DNA of 49,017 nt from assembly GCA_022424955.1 (NCBI GenBank), contig JAKMGK010000066.1, forward strand, positions 1 to 49,017. Reading direction: 5' to 3'. Positions within the stretch are counted from its first letter, which is position 1. Each line of letters starts with the position of its first letter. Shown here in pieces: positions 1 through 8,160 of the stretch. A model generated the notes under the pieces. It searched no databases. It was not told where the DNA came from and worked only from the letters and a program-made list of their open reading frames with translations. The stretch is from Flavobacteriaceae bacterium. Lineage in GTDB: Bacteria; Bacteroidota; Bacteroidia; Flavobacteriales; Flavobacteriaceae. A program made the position numbers and the translations under genes.

Positions 1-2
1 CT

Positions 3-164
3 ATACCAGGGGGTGTGGAGATGATTGATATTGTAGACTACAAATTACCGTTAGGAATGCTTGGAAGAATTGCGCACCCCCTTTTTGTCAAAAGACAATT
101 GAATCAAATTTTTAATTACAGATATAATAAACTCGTTGAGTTGTTCGGCGAATTTAGGGATTAG
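3..164 (+). CDS. SRPBCC family protein, C-terminal part only
   Basis: The window opens inside this gene. The open frame gives 53 residues ending at TAG 162-164, with the segments PGGVEMIDIVDYKLPLG and LFVKRQLNQIFNYR near the end. These match my memory of the last strand and C-terminal helix of small SRPBCC (polyketide cyclase-like, helix-grip) proteins that sit beside photolyase genes in flavobacteria. The fold binds hydrophobic ligands; the ligand here is unknown. The gene ends 6 bases before the SDR gene, so it is probably part of the same transcript. The N-terminus lies outside the window, so length and start cannot be judged. Confidence 0.7.
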   Translation: MPGGVEMIDIVDYKLPLGMLGRIAHPLFVKRQLNQIFNYRYNKLVELFGEFRD

Positions 165-170
165 ATAGCT

Positions 171-869
171 ATGAAAAAGAACATTTTAATCATTGGTGGT
201 TCAAGCGGAATAGGCCGCGCCTTAGTAGATTTACTGGCGCCAGAACACAACATTTACGTCGCGTCCAGAAGCAACGAATCACTGGCTAATACAGGAGTTA
301 CTCATATATCCTACGATGTTATGAACGATGCACTTGATTTGAGCAACTTGCCCGAACAACTTGACGGTTTTGTTTACTGCCCTGGCAGTATCAACTTACG
401 CCCTTTCCGTGGATTAAAGCCACAAACATTTCAAGATGATTTTAACTTGAACGTCCTGGGCGCAGTAAAGTCTATACAAGCCGTTTTACCTCTGTTACAA
501 AAAAGCCCGCAAGCAAGCCTAGTCTTTTATAGCACTGTTGCGGTAAGTACTGGAATGCCCTTCCATGCCTCTGTAGCAGCAGCCAAAGGGGCGCTTGAAG
601 GCTTAACCCGTTCGCTTGCAGCAGAATATGCCCCTAAGTTTAGGGTCAATTGTATTGCACCGTCCTTAACAGACACCCCTTTAGCAGATAAGTTTTTAAA
701 CAACGAAGCTAAACTAGAAAAAGCACAAGAACGCCACCCCTTAAAACAAGTGGGAAGCGCAAAAAATATCGCCCAGATGACGGCCTTTTTATTAGGAGAA
801 GAAAGTCAATGGATGACCGGTCAAATACTGCACGTAGATGGTGGAATAGGAGACCTAAAAACAAATTAG
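171..869 (+). CDS. SDR-family protein in the photolyase operon, atypical active site
   Basis: A 232-residue short-chain dehydrogenase/reductase fold protein. The N-terminal Rossmann motif GGSSGIGRA (residues 9-17) binds NAD(P). The structural Asn (N94 in FNLNVLGA) and the active-site-region Ser (S121) are present, and the C-terminus has the family's IAPSLTDTPLA and HVDGGIG segments. The catalytic YxxxK motif is not normal: Lys139 is there, but the residue four positions earlier is Val135, not Tyr (FHASVAAAK). I remember the same FHASVAAAK motif in other SDR proteins next to photolyase genes, so this may be a subgroup trait. It starts 6 bases after the SRPBCC stop and ends one base before the photolyase start, which argues for co-transcription. 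The substrate is unknown and classical dehydrogenase chemistry is doubtful. Confidence 0.88.
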   Translation: MKKNILIIGGSSGIGRALVDLLAPEHNIYVASRSNESLANTGVTHISYDVMNDALDLSNLPEQLDGFVYCPGSINLRPFRGLKPQTFQDDFNLNVLGAVKSIQAVLPLLQKSPQASLVFYSTVAVSTGMPFHASVAAAKGALEGLTRSLAAEYAPKFRVNCIAPSLTDTPLADKFLNNEAKLEKAQERHPLKQVGSAKNIAQMTAFLLGEESQWMTGQILHVDGGIGDLKTN

Positions 870-870
870 A

Positions 871-2169
871 GTGGAAAACTATACAGTATTCTGGTTTAGA
901 AGGGACCTGCGCATTGAAGACAATGCAGGGCTTTATCACGCCTTAACAAGCGGTAACAAGGTACTCCCCCTCTTTATTTTTGATACTGAGATTATTCACA
1001 AGCTGCCTAAAAAGGATGCTAGAATAGAAATGATTCATGCGGCCTTGAGGAACATAACTGATGCTATGGAGAGGAACAGATGTAACGTTGGAATGTATCT
1101 GGGACAACCCAAGGCCGTTTTTGAATCACTTTTAAAAAAATTTAATATCACTAAAGTCGTCACGAATCACGACTATGAACCCTATGCCACAGAGCGAGAC
1201 ACTGCTGTAGGAGAATTTCTACAAAAAAAGGGTGTCGCCTTTGAAACCTATAAAGACCAAGTCATTTTTGAAAAAAGTGAAGTGGTCAAAGACGATGGCA
1301 ACCCCTATAAAGTTTATACACCCTATTCACACAAATGGTTAAAACGCTTTGCAGAAGAAGGTCTGTCTCACTACCCTTCTGAAGCCCATTTAAATCAATT
1401 GGCTCCCGTTGAACAACCCCAACTTAGTCTCAATGATTTGGGCTTTGAACCCTCTCATGTTCCACAACCTCAATACACCTTCAATGCAACAGTCATTAAG
1501 GAGTATGAGGAAACCAGAAATTTCCCTGCAGTAGATAAAACCTCTAGAACAGGAGCGCATTTGCGCTTTGGAACTCTAAGTGTTCGTAAAATGGTAGCCG
1601 ACTCTGCCCAAGAAGAAAATCCTACCTTTTTAAAAGAATTAATCTGGCGTGAATTTTTCATGCAGATTTTATGGCATTTCCCCCATACGCCTCAAAGTAG
1701 TTTCAAACCCAAATACGAACGTATTGAATGGCGTAATAATGAGGAAGAATTTAAACGGTGGTGTGAAGGTAAAACAGGTTACCCTTTTGTAGACGCAGGA
1801 ATGCGCGAACTCAATACTACAGGCTTTATGCACAATCGTGTGCGTATGTTAGTGGGAAGTTTTTTGTGTAAACACCTCTTGATCGACTGGCGATGGGGTG
1901 AAGCTTACTTTGCAGAAAAATTATTGGATTATGAAATGTCGAGCAATGTAGGGAATTGGCAATGGGTTGCAGGCTGCGGCGTTGATGCTGCCCCTTACTT
2001 TAGAATATTTAATCCCATTGATCAAATCAAAAAGTTTGATCAACAGCACCAATACATCCAGAAATGGGTCCCCGATTATCAAGAATTGACCTACCCAAAA
2101 CCCATTGTTGATCACAAATTCGCCCGCGAACGTTGTTTAGCGACCTACAAAGCTGCATTGAATGCCTAA
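871..2169 (+). CDS. phr: Class I deoxyribodipyrimidine photolyase
   Basis: This 432-residue flavoprotein should use FAD and blue light to split cyclobutane pyrimidine dimers in DNA. The N-terminal photolyase domain ([15 protein letters not shown], residues 7-21) has an antenna-domain loop [12 protein letters not shown]. The C-terminal FAD domain carries [25 protein letters not shown] and YFRIFNP. All three residues of the electron-transfer Trp triad are seen at the canonical spacing (W287, W340, W363; 53 and 23 apart), as is the flavin-contacting Asn359. The start is GTG at 871, one base after the SDR stop; no ATG fits the conserved N-terminus. It is the most conventional of four CPF genes in the operon. 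The exact lesion (CPD or other) cannot be read from sequence alone. Confidence 0.93.
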
Positions 2170-2320
2170 GGGGGTAAAGAAATCAAACCTTCCAGAAAAA
2201 ATATGTTTGAGCTGTAAGCGTCCTTTTAGCTGGCGTAAGAAATGGAAAAGGGACTGGGAAAATGTAAAATATTGTAGCAAAAGATGCAGAAACGAAAAGG
2301 AAAAGCCCTCGTCTGGCTAA
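2162..2320 (+). CDS. DUF2256 small Cys-rich protein
   Basis: A 52-residue gene easily missed by length cut-offs. The product reads [18 protein letters not shown], then [20 protein letters not shown] and [14 protein letters not shown]. The CxxC (C15, C18) and CxxxC (C38, C42) pairs around a Trp- and Lys/Arg-rich core are the DUF2256 signature and look like a small zinc ribbon. It starts 8 bases inside the end of the photolyase gene and its last 37 bases overlap the CRY-DASH start, so translation of the three genes is probably coupled. The family is known mainly as a neighbour of photolyase/cryptochrome genes and its function is unknown. Basic residues would suit nucleic-acid binding, which is inference. 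Confidence 0.9.
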
Positions 2321-3597
2321 GAAATGATTTGCGCATTAAAGACCAAGTGTCTTTTTATCACGCCACCCACAAACACGAAACGGTTATTGCCTTCTACAGC
2401 TTTGATCCATTGCACTACAGCGATACGGGATGGGGATTTAAAAAAACCGAAGCCTTTAGAGCACAGTTTCTACTCGAAACACTTGCACAGCTTCAGAGAG
2501 ACCTTAAAGACCACAACATTAGCTTAGTAGTTCAACATGAAGAACCGTCAAAGGGTATTCAAGAACTAATCGAAGCGCATGCTATTACAGACCTCTACTG
2601 GCAAAAAGAATGGACCCAGGAAGAAAGAGAGCGGGAAGATGAAGTTCGCGCTGTCCTCTCAGAAAATATTTCGGTGCATACCCATTATGATCAATTTCTT
2701 TTTCATCCAGAAGATGTTCCTGTGGAAATTAATCAACTCCCTGAAGTCTTTACCGTCTTTCGTAAAAAATGCGAAAAATACAGTAAAGTGCGCAGTAGTT
2801 TTCCTGCTGCTGCAATTATGCCAGAAAATAACCTTTTAACCAAAGTAACGCCACTACCCAGTCTGGAAAATTTAGGCTTAAATACGCCCACTGCTCACCC
2901 TCACTCTGCCTTTCCCTTTAAAGGTGGAAGCAAAGCGGCAGAATTACGCATGGAACACTATTTTTGGGACACAGAAAAACTCTCCTTCTACAAACAAACC
3001 CGCAATGGGCTATTAGGTTTAGACTATAGCTCAAAGTTCTCTGCTTGGTTAGCAAACGGGGCTATCTCTGCAAGACAAATCTATTGGGAAATCAAAGAAT
3101 ATGAAGCACAAGTGCAAAAGAATCAATCTACCTATTGGCTCATTTTTGAATTAATATGGCGCGACTACTTTAAGTTTATCTCCCTAAAACATCAAGATAA
3201 AATCTTTCAATTGGGAGGAATTTTACAGAAAGATTATCACTGGAAAAATAATCCCAAAACCATTCAAGCATGGATCGATGGGGAAACCCGTGAGCCCTTT
3301 GTCAATGGGAATATGATCGAATTGCAAAAGACGGGATGGATGAGCAATCGCGGAAGACAAAATGTCGCCTCCTATTTTGCTAAAGATTTATTGCTCGATT
3401 GGCGCATAGGGGCGACCTATTTTGAAGCCCAACTAATCGACTATGATGTACATAGTAATTATGGCAACTGGATGTATGTCGCTGGCGTAGGAAATGATCC
3501 TAGAGATCGTAAATTCAACGTTCGCATGCAGGCTGAACGCTATGACGAAAACGGTAAATTTCAACGCTTGTGGAATCAAAAAAGTCTGTTTGAATGA
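2284..3597 (+). CDS. DASH-type cryptochrome/photolyase
   Basis: A 437-residue CPF protein. The N-terminal antenna domain begins [13 protein letters not shown] (residues 8-20). CRY-DASH hallmarks in the FAD domain are [22 protein letters not shown] (split here as [10 protein letters not shown] and [12 protein letters not shown]), [14 protein letters not shown] and a C-terminus [10 protein letters not shown]. The Trp triad is complete (W320, W373, W396). CRY-DASH proteins bind FAD and usually methenyltetrahydrofolate, repair CPDs in single-stranded or looped DNA, and some act as light sensors. The start codon lies within the DUF2256 gene and the stop overlaps the next ATG by four bases (ATGA, 3594-3597). 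Confidence 0.92.
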
Positions 3598-5126
3598 AAC
3601 TACGTCTAATTTTAGGAGATCAGCTCAACTTACAGCATCAGTGGTTTGATACAGTCGATCAAGAAGTAACTTATATCTTGATGGAAATGCGACAAGAAAC
3701 AGATTATGCCCCGCATCATATTCAAAAAGTCGTCGGTTTTTTTGGCGCGATGCGCCATTTTGCTCAAACCCTCAAACAGCAAGGACATCAAGTGATTTAT
3801 TTAAAACTTGATGATGCTGAAAATCAACAGTCGCTCCCCGCTAATCTCAATAACATCATCGCACAAGAGCATATCACTTCATTTGAATATCAAGCGCCAG
3901 ATGAGTACCGCCTAGACCAGCAATTAAAAAGCTTTTGCGAGGAAATTAATTTACCTACTGCTCTAGTAGATAGCGATCATTTTATGACCAGTCGGGAAGA
4001 ATTATCGCAGTTTTTTGAAGGAAAAAAACAATTGATTCTAGAGTTCTTTTACCGCAATATGCGCAAGCAATTCAACCTCTTGATGCAGCAAGGACAACCC
4101 GAAGGAGGACAATGGAACTTTGATAAAAGCAATCGTAAAAAATGGAAAGGAAGTCCAGCCATTCCGGTAGCTTATATCCCCCAAACAGAAGAACTTGCGT
4201 CGCTAAAACAACTCATTCACAAGGCTGGGGTAAAGACTATTGGAACCCTAGATACAGAAAATTATCTCTTCCCTTTTAGTCGGGAAGAAGCGCTTGTACA
4301 ACTTGCCTATTTCTGTGAACATCTATTGGTTCACTTTGGGGATTATCAAGATGCCTTGCATACTGAAGAAATTAACCTCTTCCATTCTAGAATATCATTT
4401 GCACTCAATGTAAAAATGATTAGTCCGCTAGAGGTAGTAGAAAAAGTAATCGCCTATTATCGCCAATACGATGATGAAATTGAATTGGCACAAGTCGAAG
4501 GTTTTGTTCGACAGATCATTGGATGGAGAGAGTATATGCGTGGAATTTATTGGAAAGAAATGCCCGCTTATGCATTGAAGAATGCCTTAGAAAATCACAA
4601 TCCACTTCCAGATTTTTATTGGACGGCAAAGACAAAAATGAATTGTTTGCATCACAGTATTCAAAACTCTTTAGATAATGCTTATGCCCACCATATTCAA
4701 CGCCTGATGATCACGGGGAACTTTGCTTTGTTAGCCCAAGTACATCCCGATGCTGTAGATCAATGGTATTTGGGCATTTATGCCGATGCAATTGAATGGG
4801 TACAAATCACCAATACACGAGGAATGAGTCAATGGGCAGACGGGGGAATAGTCGCGACAAAACCCTATGTTTCTGCCGCTTCTTATATCAATAAAATGAG
4901 CAATTACTGCGAAAGCTGTGCTTATGATAAAAAGAAACGCCTGGGAGAAGATGCCTGTCCTTTTAATAGTCTCTATTGGAATTTCCTCGACGATAAAAAG
5001 CAATATTTCGCAAAAAACAATCGCATGGCCATGATGCTGCGATTACTCGAAAAAATCCCTCCGCAAGAGTTAGCAGAAATCAAAGCCCGTGCAGGAGCAA
5101 TACTAAGTAATCCAGATGCCTATTAA
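3594..5126 (+). CDS. FeS-BCP family photolyase (PhrB/CryB type, likely (6-4) photolyase)
   Basis: A 510-residue member of the prokaryotic iron-sulfur cryptochrome/photolyase group. It starts [12 protein letters not shown], the usual beginning of 'deoxyribodipyrimidine photolyase-related' proteins. Four cysteines, C351, C439, C442 and C455 ([23 protein letters not shown]), fall one residue from the [4Fe-4S] ligands of Agrobacterium PhrB as I remember them (350, 438, 441, 454). The family has FAD and a lumazine antenna and repairs (6-4) photoproducts; some members signal. The segments [12 protein letters not shown] and [13 protein letters not shown] are typical. It overlaps CRY-DASH by 4 bases and the next CPF gene by 11. 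FAD photochemistry is well supported; repair specificity is inferred from the family. Confidence 0.92.
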
Positions 5127-6597
5127 TACGATCCCAGTAGCTATCGTTTGGTTAAAGCGTGACTTGCGCTTAAGAGATAATGCTGCGCTTAGTTTGGCAC
5201 AAAAAAATCATAAACATGTTCTTTTACTCTATATTGCAGAACCATCACTGCGTTCTGAAGCCCACAGTAGTGAACGTCACTTTGACTTCATCAAACAATC
5301 TTTGGTTGATTTAAATCAACAATTAAAAGCGTTGAACACCACTGTTTTATCTGTGGTGGGAGAAGTAATTGATATTTTAAACCAACTCAAACAACTCCTG
5401 ACCATAGAGGGAATTTATTCGCATCTAGAAACGGGTATTGAAATAACCTATCAAAGGGATTGCAATGTTGCTGACTGGTGTCAAGAACATGATATACCTT
5501 GGGTCGAAAAAAGACAACAAGGGGTTTTCCGGGGCATGCGAAATAGGAAAAAATGGATTCAACAATGGAGTCAATTAATGAATAAAGCGCAATATCCTAC
5601 CCCATCAAAAAAAGGTTTTATCCATGAAAAAGAAATCGCTAACCTTAGAAAACATTTTAAGTCTTTAGATTGCTCTACAACACCCCAAAAAGGGATCCAA
5701 CCCGGAGGGGAAAAAGCAGCTTATCGTTACTTAGATTCTTTTTTTGAAGGTCGCTATCAAAACTATCAAACCCATATTTCAAAGCCAGATCTCGCCCGCA
5801 AAAGCTGTAGTCGTCTCTCGCCTTATATCGCCTATGGGAATCTTTCCATGCGACAGGTTTTACAACGTACAGAAGCAGAAAAGGAAGCTGGTAAAAAAGG
5901 TTTTGGGATTCGTGCCTTTGAATCGCGCTTGCGCTGGCAAGCCCATTTTATTCAAAAATTTGAAATGGAATGCCGCATGGAGTTTGAGAGTATTAATCGC
6001 GGGTATCACTTACTCAAAAAACCTTTGAATCAAAACTATATAAGCGCATGGGAAGAAGGCAAAACAGGTGTTCCCATGGTTGACGCCGCTATGCGCTGTT
6101 TAGTCGCGACAGGCTACTTGAATTTTAGAATGCGTGCTTTAGTAGTCTCCTTTTTTGTCCATCAGTTATGGCAGCCGTGGCAGGCATGTTCGGCTTTTCT
6201 AGCGAGACAGTTCTTGGATTTCGAACCTGGGATTCATTTTCCCCAATTACAAATGCAAGCTGGTGAAACTGGGATCAATACCTTGCGTATATACAATCCT
6301 GTAAAAAACGGACAAGAGCACGACCCAAAAGGACATTTTACCCAACAGTGGCTGCCCGAGCTAAAAAATCTCCCCGCTACGTTGGTTCATACCCCATGGG
6401 AAATCACCCCTTTTGAAGAAGGACTTTATGATTTTGAATTAGGTAAAAGTTATCCTCAACCTATCGTTGATCTTAACAAAAGCAGGAAACACGCCTCGGA
6501 TATATTGTGGAACTTACAGAAGAATTCAAAGGTATACCAAGAAAGTAAACGTATTTTACAGCGACATACCTTACCCAATAGAAAAAGCATACAATAA
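5116..6597 (+). CDS. Divergent cryptochrome/photolyase family protein without the classical Trp triad
   Basis: A 493-residue protein with a clear photolyase N-terminus ([16 protein letters not shown], residues 10-25) and FAD-domain landmarks [13 protein letters not shown] (232-244), [15 protein letters not shown] (313-327) and RIYNPVK (391-397). Counting from the retained Trp355 (PWQACS), the positions for the other two triad residues hold Lys302 and Leu378; no Trp lies between residues 356 and 411. The flavin loop, normally N-x-G-x-W, reads [13 protein letters not shown] here. It also has a long N-terminal linker with [12 protein letters not shown]. It overlaps the preceding gene by 11 bases and ends 2 bases before the DUF2805 gene. 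It is surely of the CPF fold, but whether it repairs DNA or acts as sensor or partner is unknown. Confidence 0.85.
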
Positions 6598-6599
6598 AG

Positions 6600-6887
6600 A
6601 TGAAGAAGAAGAAGTTTGACCTTAATGAGCAACAAGTCGATCGTATTATCGAAATGGCTTGGGAAGATCGCACCCCTTTTGATGCCATCACAGATCAATT
6701 TGGCTTAAAAGAGCAGGATGTTATTGAATTAATGCGCAAAGAAATGAAACGCTCAAGTTTTAATTTGTGGCGTGCACGTGTTCAAGGACGAAGCACTAAA
6801 CACCGTAAAAATCGCGGAGAAGATGTGGATCGCTTTAAGTGCTCTAGACAACGTAGCATTACCAACAACAAGGTCTCTAAAAGATAA
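6600..6887 (+). CDS. DUF2805/TIGR03643 family small protein
   Basis: A 95-residue protein whose first 70 residues match the TIGR03643/DUF2805 pattern: NEQQVDRIIEMAWEDRTPFD, then ITDQFGLKEQDVIELMRKEM and SSFNLWRARVQGRSTKH. The helical arrangement resembles a helix-turn-helix, with QFGLKEQDVIELMR as a candidate turn and second helix. The C-terminal tail (RKNRGEDVDRFKCSRQRS and onward) is basic. The family is known mostly from its association with photolyase and cryptochrome genes and has no assigned function. It starts 2 bases after the fourth CPF gene and appears to be the last gene of the operon; a perfect hairpin follows at 6897-6916. DNA binding is inference. Confidence 0.87.
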   Translation: MKKKKFDLNEQQVDRIIEMAWEDRTPFDAITDQFGLKEQDVIELMRKEMKRSSFNLWRARVQGRSTKHRKNRGEDVDRFKCSRQRSITNNKVSKR

Positions 6888-6896
6888 ATTTTGTAC

Positions 6897-6916
6897 CTTA
6901 AGGAGAAATCCTTAAG
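6897..6916 (+). other. Perfect 8-bp hairpin with GAAA tetraloop
   Basis: CTTAAGGA (6897-6904), loop GAAA, then TCCTTAAG (6909-6916). The hairpin ends two bases before the ATG at 6919 and contains the AAGGAG Shine-Dalgarno-like sequence in its 5' arm and loop. There is no U-tract, so a classical terminator is unlikely. It could cap the photolyase operon transcript or hide the ribosome site of the following gene. Confidence 0.5.
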
Positions 6917-6918
6917 AA

Positions 6919-7334
6919 ATGAAACAGAATAAAACACAAAAAACAAACGAAAGTGTGCGCTTGTTTTTGTCTTCTGTAGCAGAGGAACAAAAACGGGAAG
7001 ACAGTTATACCCTCTTAAACTTAATGGGGAAATTACCAAAGCTGAACCCCACTTATGGGGAACAAGTATTATTGGTTTTGGAGAATATCATTACAAATAC
7101 AAGACGGGTCGTGAAGGGGACTGGTTTTTAGTGGGCTTCTCTCCCAGAAAACACGCCTTGACCCTTTATTTAATGTGTGATCTTTCGCACGATGGATTAG
7201 ATTTTACCGGTTTAGGAAAATATAAATTGGGAAAGGGGTGTCTTTATATTAAACGCTTGAGTAATGTCAATATCGATGTCCTTAAAAAGATCATTAAAGA
7301 CTCGATTCGCATCATTAAAGAAAAGTATTCTTAA
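6919..7334 (+). pseudogene. DUF1801 protein gene broken by a one-base frameshift
   Basis: The ATG frame gives a good DUF1801 N-terminus (SVRLFLSSVAEEQKREDSYT, then LLNLMG) and then runs into nonsense ending at 7131. A second frame from about 7032 gives ITKAEPHLWGTSIIGFGEY, HYKYKTGREGDWFLVGFSPR and ends GCLYIKRLSNVNIDVLKKII, the rest of the same domain. Restoring one G in the G-run 7026-7029 joins both halves into a 138-residue protein of the expected length. DUF1801 is a small YdhG-like fold of unknown role. The stop overlaps the stop of the convergent gene. Either a real mutation or a homopolymer error in the assembly explains it. Confidence 0.85.
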
Positions 7335-8160
7335 TTCTTTTTTTGCAATAACTCTACGCCCATGCCTATACATAAAGCACGCTGTTTAACCCAATGAGCA
7401 TGACTTGGACTACGCGCATAATGGGATTTTCCAAACACTCCAGCAGAAAACCAAAGCCCCTCAACACCCAGGTCTTCAATCCATTCAATGGACACAAAAA
7501 AGTCGTCTTCTACATAAATGTCATAGGGGGTTAAATCGACCTCAATGGTTTGGGGTTCATTAGGCAACTCTAAATAGATAGGTTCTTTTAAAACATTCTC
7601 TCCAGGAAACCCCTCTTCTTTTAAATAGATATTTAGTCTTAAAATGACACTCTAATAGTGTTTTCTGCTATGGATAACCAAAAGCGTTGAATCAAGGTGG
7701 GACGTTGCTTTTTTACCCGCTCAAATTGTGCTATTTCATTCCCCAATTGATTGGTGGTAAAGCCAGTTGTAATTAATTTAGAATCAGTTTCATTCCCCAC
7801 TGCTTTTCGCTCCCACTTTCCGCTAGTAACCACGACTTCTTTTAAAGCGGTAGTTTCTGGTTGAAATGCAATGTTGAGCAGCTTCTCTTTTGTACCATCA
7901 ATTTGGTTAATTTTAAAGCTTTGAAAGGCAAATCCCACCATAGAAAAATAGATAGAATCATTGACCTTGTCAGAAGGAATTTCAAGTAAATAATAGCCTT
8001 GTTCGTCACTTACGGTACCAATCCCTGCACCGGGAATCCCAATATTGACAAAGGGTAAAGGTTCGTTAAATTCGGCATCTGTGATTTTACCAAAGACCAT
8101 CGTTTGGGCTTGTAGTATACTTCCTATAAGAAGGAAGAGAATAATGTAGGTAGGTCGCAT
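7331..8160 (-). pseudogene. Secreted CarboxypepD_reg-like domain protein, frameshifted
   Basis: The first frame (8160 down to about 7654) gives a signal peptide (IILFLLIGSILQAQ) and a CarboxypepD_reg-like beta-sandwich (VFGKITDAEFNEPLPFVN, GTVSDEQGYYLLEI), ending IAENTI before the frame breaks. The other frame continues as SVILRLNIYLKEEGFPGENV, then VDLTPYDIYVEDDFFVSIEW and GLWFSAGVFG to the stop at 7331. This is the order seen in intact flavobacterial homologues as I remember them. One missing base near 7651-7654 explains the break; with it the gene is 276 codons. These proteins are periplasmic or surface proteins of unknown function that share the domain with TonB-dependent receptors. It is the second frameshift within 650 bases. 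Confidence 0.83.

Follow-up and report, generated by a model that had tools for sequence, protein, structure and literature searches.

Light-inducible gene sets linked to LitR proteins (PplR/PmlR) have been described in Pseudomonas putida and P. mendocina (PMC9758184). A photolyase-related gene cluster is enriched in marine Flavobacteriia that bear proteorhodopsin (PMC5932025), and Synechococcus sp. PCC 7335 has a UV-B-inducible operon with two photolyase genes, reported in a paper that counted only two earlier reports of photolyase operons (PMC9649867). Here we describe an operon at positions 3-6887 of the contig JAKMGK010000066.1 of a Flavobacteriaceae bacterium, in which four genes of the cryptochrome/photolyase family (CPF) stand together. 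The window, that is, the whole stretch of 49,017 nucleotides analysed, is a complete contig (C36) from a Bacteroidota genome of 1.8 Mb and 91% completeness, and its left end cuts the operon. We read the locus as a light-induced operon for DNA photorepair and photo-protection under a CarH/LitR-like MerR repressor, with accessory roles for a divergent CPF protein (CPF4) and for two small proteins, DUF2256 and DUF2805; we put the probability of this reading at about 0.62. Genomes, contigs and loci of our collection carry the labels G, C and L, G000 being the genome of the window.

A conserved operon with four CPF genes

Eight genes lie on the plus strand, with intergenic gaps of -37 to +6 in the list of open reading frames (ORFs); families were assigned from Pfam, NCBIfam and PDB sequence matches. 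The first is the 3' end (3-164) of an SRPBCC-type gene, whose 5' end is lost at the contig end. It is followed by genes for a short-chain dehydrogenase/reductase (SDR) at 171-869 (gap +6; Pfam PF13561, 134 bits) and a class I cyclobutane pyrimidine dimer (CPD) photolyase at 871-2169 (gap +1; PF03441, 256 bits). The gene for DUF2256, a small four-cysteine protein of zinc type, occupies 2162-2320 and overlaps both of its neighbours (gap -8; PF10013, 75.8 bits). The CRY-DASH gene at 2284-3597 (gap -37) passes the NCBIfam membership cut-off of TIGR02765 (492 against 317 bits) and matches PDB 6kii at 367 bits. Next comes the gene for an FeS-type prokaryotic 6-4 photolyase (FeS-BCP, with a DPRP domain) at 3594-5126 (gap -4; PF04244, 267 bits; PDB 7ykn/8a1h, 523 bits). 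The block ends with CPF4, a protein of cryptochrome/photolyase fold, at 5116-6597 (gap -11; PF03441, 207 bits), and the small protein DUF2805 (TIGR03643), resembling a helix-turn-helix (HTH) protein, at 6600-6887 (gap +2; 119 bits against a cut-off of 66.6). All CPF genes detected in the 91%-complete genome sit in this block, as three PF03441 matches and one DPRP match.

In the class I photolyase, E274, W277, N341, M345, N378 and W384 and the Trp triad were all retained in an alignment to the E. coli photolyase 1dnp, through which we mapped the E. coli lesion-site and triad numbering. In our CPF tree, the branch that joins the protein to E. coli PhrB has modest support (82/78). The FeS-BCP enzyme has the DPRP domain and four cluster cysteines (351, 439, 442 and 455), which are conserved in 36 of 36 homologues above 45% identity; on these features it is predicted to be of the 6-4 photolyase type.

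The 53-residue SRPBCC fragment in the window gave no Pfam match. The label is weak, as the intact homologue in L021 matches Polyketide_cyc, an SRPBCC-type family, at 21.2 bits, below the cut-off of 23.4. The 5' part of the gene was found, together with an operator (G000:C29:352-381), on contig C29 of the same genome; the final residues of that fragment are those that open the frame in the window (compared by eye, the contigs being unjoined). The start of the operon and its promoter are on C29, outside the window. A promoter was also looked for in the first 9 kb by the Bacteroidetes consensus TTTG/TAnnTTTG; the sole match lay on the minus strand at 6063 and was taken as chance.

Of 16 same-genus loci carrying DUF2805, 11 show the complete set of eight families, arranged alike, and four are truncated at contig ends; in the last (L029), CPF4 was undetectable and the DASH gene was in two pieces. 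The block is a conserved operon, one unit in this genus, which agrees with the first-pass annotation: it had listed the same ORFs and spacing and proposed a single unit. Its division of the CPF genes into class I, CRY-DASH, FeS-BCP and a divergent fourth clade was borne out by the tree.

Other marine Flavobacteriaceae, including Winogradskyella and Gelidibacter, carry a long form of the operon, which several of them have next to the same MurA gene. It contains genes for TetR, an ABC1 kinase, flavin reductase, a YbjT-like protein, DUF2256, DASH, the 6-4 enzyme and CPF4, and continues after CPF4 with a 142-residue protein, DUF2805, FolE, SDR, glutathione peroxidase, TspO, SRPBCC and PHR1. Either the FeS enzyme or a relative at 31-35% identity occupies the 6-4 slot; the relative lacks all four cluster cysteines (0 of 18 at each site). 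Cluster-free prokaryotic 6-4 members are described as subgroup M in PMC9178010.

Directly after the operon in the window, a DUF1801 gene (6919-7334) appears as two overlapping ORFs in different frames; its counterpart in L021 is one 138-residue protein with a DUF1801 match over the cut-off.

The inverted repeat and a candidate regulator

Alignment of upstream DNA from relatives revealed a conserved 30-bp inverted repeat, TGTTTAA-N16-TTAAACA, 5' of the SRPBCC gene, with a GTATCTTT-like element closely 3' of it. In 31 relatives we counted 27 exact copies in 16 genomes, compared to 5 of a reversed control. In a set of 113 loci chosen for DUF2805 (1,938,534 bp, or 1.94 Mb; two pairs of loci are from the same genome), there were 59 exact copies (56 distinct, in 44 of the 113 loci) and none of the control. 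Copies with one mismatch numbered 14 against 1, and those with two mismatches 45 against 47; therefore, only close copies carry signal. When the spacer was varied from 8 to 24, a gap of 16 gave 59 copies, 17 gave 4, 10 gave 1 and the others gave none.

Of 17 short-form operons with upstream DNA, 15 have the repeat 5' of their first gene (14 exact copies and one with a single mismatch), and an exact copy stands 5' of the first gene, TetR, in 15 of 18 long-form loci. The copy in the window's own genome is the one on C29, just 5' of the SRPBCC start. Several promoters inside the block had been named beforehand as what would speak against one unit. No operator copy at up to 2 mismatches was found in window 1-7400; the long form does have a second exact repeat in mid-operon, 5' of the gene for the 142-residue protein, in 12 of 19 loci.

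Further sites were observed 5' of genes for phytoene desaturase (NCBIfam CrtID, over the cut-off), TspO, MsrA, an ECF sigma factor, FolE and, presumably, HtpG, a name that we assigned from the sequence. As the operator is common to the operon and to carotenoid genes, the operon is probably light-controlled. An exact operator was also present at the start of a GLPGLI-family gene (L204:2139-2957, on G000:C48) and in two relatives (L206 and L208); we know of no link of this family to light.

The only MerR gene detected in the genome, on contig C109, encodes a 307-residue protein with a MerR HTH domain (PF13411, 51.8 bits) and a B12-binding_2 domain (PF02607, 43.4 bits), whose closest solved relatives are of the T. 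thermophilus CarH/LitR type (49 bits). When aligned to CarH by phmmer, it is covered across the W-x9-EH and ExH positions. This gene adjoins a phytoene/squalene synthase gene, with a one-mismatch operator between the two. Likewise, in three genomes of three other families (G038, G039 and G042), exact copies lie directly 3' of the MerR homologue and 5' of a phytoene desaturase or sigma factor gene. Across 25 MerR-family loci we counted 15 sites with at most one mismatch, compared to 0 in the control. This arrangement makes control of the operator by a CarH/LitR-like MerR protein likely, and the protein would act by binding the repeat.

CPF4, DUF2256 and DUF2805

CPF4 has the two-domain fold of the family (PF00875 and PF03441 matched); its AlphaFold model has a pLDDT (predicted local distance difference test) of 91 and template modelling (TM) scores of about 0.8 to solved photolyases and cryptochromes. 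It reaches no NCBIfam CPF cut-off (for the CRY-DASH family TIGR02765, 142 against 317 bits), and its top PDB sequence matches are plant cryptochromes. In the CPF tree (56 rows, with long-branch warnings), CPF4 is a clade of 18 rows with 100/100 support, set on a long stem and apart from CRY-DASH; this clade also spans Alpha- and Gammaproteobacteria and Deinococcus.

We compared the active-site residues with those of class I enzymes in 50 CPF4 rows, obtained from 56 sequences after near-duplicates and one fragment were dropped. At the lesion site, Glu274 is replaced by Arg in 50 rows, Asn341 by Phe in 49, Met345 by Ala in 47 and Trp384 by Met in 49. Asn378, at the flavin-N5 position, is His in all 50, and none of the 50 has Trp at position 382, proximal to the flavin adenine dinucleotide (FAD). 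Trp277, Trp306 and Trp359 are retained in 50, 49 and 48 rows, respectively. Across these rows, CPF4 has neither the residue set of a CPD photolyase nor, with Trp382 replaced, a complete Trp triad. The residue table of PMC7560933, as given in the passages of that paper, has no class that combines Ala and Met at the two substrate positions. Of the operon's parts, CPF4 is the most likely to be a new class.

In Deinococcus, CPF4 continues into a uracil-DNA glycosylase (UDG) domain. Two plasmid-encoded fusions were checked with Pfam (757 and 773 residues; L129:3995-6268 and L141:4013-6334), and the gene under the CPF4 match is UDG-named in seven of seven listed Deinococcus records. A 711-residue frame in G287 has its extra length upstream of the CPF4 match; it was set aside as a possible second fusion, and a second domain was not searched for. 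Reversal by a photolyase of a dimer with a deaminated cytosine would leave a uracil. Together with the UDG fusion, this suggests a deaminated-cytosine dimer as a CPF4 substrate.

We determined co-occurrence in 247 Bacteroidota genomes, with a threshold of E <= 1e-80 for CPF4 and the family cut-off for DASH (passed in 59 genomes, out of 172 with any match). CPF4 was found in 36 genomes, DUF2256 in 79, DUF2805 in 73 and DPRP in 83. All 36 CPF4 genomes, which cover 24 genera, also have the DPRP-type 6-4 photolyase (12.1 expected), and 35 of them have DUF2256, 31 DUF2805 and 30 DASH. DUF2256 and DPRP share 73 genomes, where 26.5 were expected; of the 59 DASH genomes, 55 have DUF2256, and in 30 it lies no more than 1 kb from the DASH gene. 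Genes paired at a distance of up to 10 kb share a strand in 30 of 30 cases for DUF2256 and DPRP, 21 of 21 for DUF2256 and CPF4 and 34 of 35 for DUF2256 and DASH. The Fisher p-values for co-occurrence ignore phylogeny and are inflated by shared ancestry. For DUF2805 we used 80 named loci, the best 80 of 582 confirmed matches and thus biased to close relatives: 42 have a CPF gene within 5 kb and 12 an AlkB-type dioxygenase gene within 3 kb. Across genomes, CPF genes are thus tracked by DUF2256 and, less closely, by DUF2805, as had been suspected from the window, where the small proteins were taken for photolyase companions.

CPF genes of Alpha- and Gammaproteobacteria also have DUF2256 beside them. 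In Salinivibrio and Tritonibacter, DUF2256 comes after CPF4, and an Acinetobacter plasmid carries DUF2805, DUF2256 and a DPRP enzyme together. The CPF4 and DUF2805 genes of Vibrio fortis are on opposite strands, about 3 kb apart. DUF2256 was not seen near CPF4 in the records of Duffyella, Deinococcus and some others. Among plasmid records, DUF2805 of Tolypothrix and DUF2256 of Spirosoma and Azospirillum had no CPF gene nearby, and a search of a phage collection for DUF2805 gave zero matches. In Acinetobacter sp. WY4 (L134:6998-10095), a nudC gene lies near DUF2805, DUF2256 and a DPRP photolyase; a DUF2805-NudC domain architecture is listed in PMC6856373.

The motif CxxC...CxxxC was present in 18 of 19 DUF2256 sequences, the remaining one being cut, and the family is placed in the TRASH metal-binding clan (PMC4047054). 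Its cysteines and clan membership mark DUF2256 as a probable zinc protein of TRASH type, in line with the metal-binding role first proposed for it. The DUF2805 model is an HTH-like helical bundle whose residues 11-60 mostly have pLDDT >90, and fold searches returned only weak matches to solved HTH domains; it may be an HTH factor, as the first-pass annotation suggested. As a binder of the operator, DUF2805 was set aside as less probable: most of the operator sites observed are at other genes, and many DUF2805 loci have no CPF or AlkB neighbour (26 of 80 by the distances given above, several of them on short contigs). Passages of the open-access literature on DUF2256 and DUF2805/TIGR03643 give no function for either.

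We made three further observations on these neighbourhoods. In L053, L057, L064, L080, L099, L102 and L113, DUF2805 is directly 3' of a gene for an AlkB-type 2-oxoglutarate dioxygenase, often after an AraC regulator. A further CPF group (L044:8947-10074, L094, L100, L125 and L137:4824-5999), at 25-30% identity to the class I protein, forms its own clade (100/99), adjoins DUF2805 in four loci, and in Persicobacter is directly 5' of CPF4; it may be of the PhrSph98 kind. In two distant Bacteroidota (L166 and L185), a very divergent DASH-related protein (26%) lies beside CPF4, on a long branch and with unsure placement.

Competing explanations and known systems

In the explanation that we favour, the MerR repressor would occupy the operator at the operon promoter in the dark. 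It would sense light, probably via coenzyme B12, and release the operator, so that the repair enzymes would be co-produced with carotenoid genes. Class I photolyases reverse CPDs, FeS enzymes reverse (6-4) photoproducts and CRY-DASH proteins handle dimers in single-stranded or looped DNA, and the three enzymes of the operon would do the same. CPF4 would be a flavoprotein with an auxiliary part, binding or repairing a UV lesion which the others handle poorly, such as dimers with deaminated cytosine. DUF2256 may be a metal-binding partner of several CPF proteins and help in their maturation, their stability or their recruitment to DNA; DUF2805 may be a small accessory protein of direct-reversal repair that binds nucleic acids. 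More tentatively, CPF4 could be a distinct CPF class with its own photochemistry, marked by the His at flavin N5 and the missing FAD-proximal Trp, that reverses a UV lesion poorly handled by every known photolyase, for instance uracil-containing dimers that arise when cytosine is deaminated, with DUF2256 as the general metal-binding partner of CPF proteins. This would explain both the UDG fusion and the constant company of the 6-4 photolyase.

Several results weigh against the favoured explanation. The C109 protein scores 56 bits against the NCBIfam CarH equivalog cut-off of 400 and has no PF02310 B12-binding match at E <= 1, which makes B12 sensing insecure; therefore, we call it only CarH/LitR-like, and our confidence was lowered from about 0.7 to the value given at the outset. 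The clustering is not general: CPF4 and DPRP come within 10 kb of each other in only 7 of 36 genomes; for DUF2805 and DPRP the figure is 12 of 61, and for DUF2256 and DUF2805 it is 22 of 61 (17 of these on the same strand). The DUF2805 loci that lack CPF and AlkB neighbours count here as well, and PMC3597751, in the passages that mention DUF2805, assigns it to a network spoke that translation domains define; this does not speak for a role in repair. The operator, finally, does not belong to MerR genes alone. The TetR_C_23 gene opens the long form behind the exact sites described above, the 20 TetR_C_23 loci contain 10 one-mismatch sites (none exact; control 0), and a one-mismatch site accompanies the one TetR_C_23 gene in the genome of the window. 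These sites are what one would expect if the TetR protein, rather than MerR, bound the repeat, with light acting indirectly via redox, porphyrin or membrane state. Of the 31 relatives, 16 have an exact site, and among these the MerR homologue is present in 15 and TetR in 14; among the 15 without such a site, 9 have the MerR homologue and 6 have TetR. Presence alone does not decide. Two genomes separate them: G038 has two exact copies and a MerR homologue with no TetR_C_23 match, and G040 has TetR_C_23 with neither a MerR homologue nor a site. These patterns favour the MerR protein, as do the exact sites directly beside MerR genes, and we consider TetR control rather unlikely.

The first-pass annotation had seen in the locus an integrated light-responsive repair or signalling module, arguing that a merely redundant set of repair enzymes would need fewer accessory proteins. 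Light response probably stands; the step from many accessory genes to signalling found no support. Were the CPF proteins, chiefly CPF4, a light-signalling module, with DUF2805 as the DNA-binding output and DUF2256 as adaptor, one could account for the loss in CPF4 of the class I lesion residues and of the FAD-proximal Trp, as some cryptochromes differ from photolyases, for its best PDB matches to plant cryptochromes and for the HTH-like shape of DUF2805. We regard this as improbable, because CPF4 is fused to a DNA glycosylase in Deinococcus and always accompanies a 6-4 photolyase in the 247 genomes, DUF2805 also lies beside AlkB, and the control of the operon is explained by the operator with other regulator genes beside it. 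In our reading, CPF4 assists in repair and is not a signalling cryptochrome. The neighbours FolE, TspO, glutathione peroxidase, flavin reductase, carotenoid genes and AlkB, together with the UDG fusion, made us prefer repair and photo-protection over signalling; the likelier light sensor would be the MerR protein encoded elsewhere in the genome. Plain redundancy, in which a sunlit lifestyle and selection for a compact genome gathered the genes and the small proteins are functionally unrelated to the CPF enzymes, seems very improbable to us. Lifestyle can drive co-occurrence, the statistics ignore phylogeny, the families are not neighbours in many genomes, and two unlike subclades, one having the FeS cysteines and one lacking them, fill the 6-4 slot. 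Against this stand the strand agreement of DUF2256 with DPRP, CPF4 and DASH, its place beside CPF genes also in Alpha- and Gammaproteobacteria, and the operator common to the operon and carotenoid genes.

The favoured explanation resembles the Pseudomonas LitR system (PMC9758184) in having a MerR-family regulator and paired operator half-sites, and PhrB, SDR, CryB (a cryptochrome/photolyase) and FolE are light-inducible or LitR-neighbouring there. The systems differ in phylum (Pseudomonadota versus Bacteroidota) and in operator, which is TGTACA-N12-TGTACA in Pseudomonas and TGTTTAA-N16-TTAAACA in Flavobacteriaceae. The Pseudomonas system has a LOV partner, which was not sought in Flavobacteriaceae here, and CPF4, DUF2256 and DUF2805 are unnamed in the passages of that paper. 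The cluster of PMC5932025 is from the same lineage, and the genome of the window also carries a bacterial rhodopsin gene (G000:C82:17357-18022; PF01036, 121 bits); the passages on that cluster are silent on its gene order, an operator, a regulator, a CPF4 class and any role of the small proteins. The Synechococcus operon (PMC9649867) likewise has overlapping CPF genes in one operon, but two of them, one of PhrSph98 type, compared to four here. PMC9178010 divides the family into eight groups, of which CPD I, DASH and prokaryotic 6-4 (FeS-BCP) accommodate the other three CPF proteins of the window. CPF4 fits none of the testable groups, the 'DASH-like' group, whose sequences are not in the text, being left out of the comparison.

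A Bacteroidota LitR/CarH regulon of photolyase and carotenoid genes with its operator, the CPF4 residues and fusion, and a count-based tie of DUF2256 and DUF2805 to CPF genes were not met in the passages of open-access literature. If our explanation is true, Flavobacteriaceae, many of which use rhodopsin, would have a defined light switch, with one operator common to DNA photorepair, carotenoid, folate and porphyrin-linked genes, and two small protein families would be tied to photorepair. CPF4 is a photolyase-fold clade of Bacteroidota, Proteobacteria and Deinococcus, marked out by unusual active-site residues and with no assigned substrate. Photolyase clusters of Flavobacteriia and LitR-controlled photolyase genes of Pseudomonas are already published; new to these are the operator before the operon, the CPF4 clade with its near-invariant lesion-site and flavin-site changes, and the tie of DUF2256 and DUF2805 to CPF genes.

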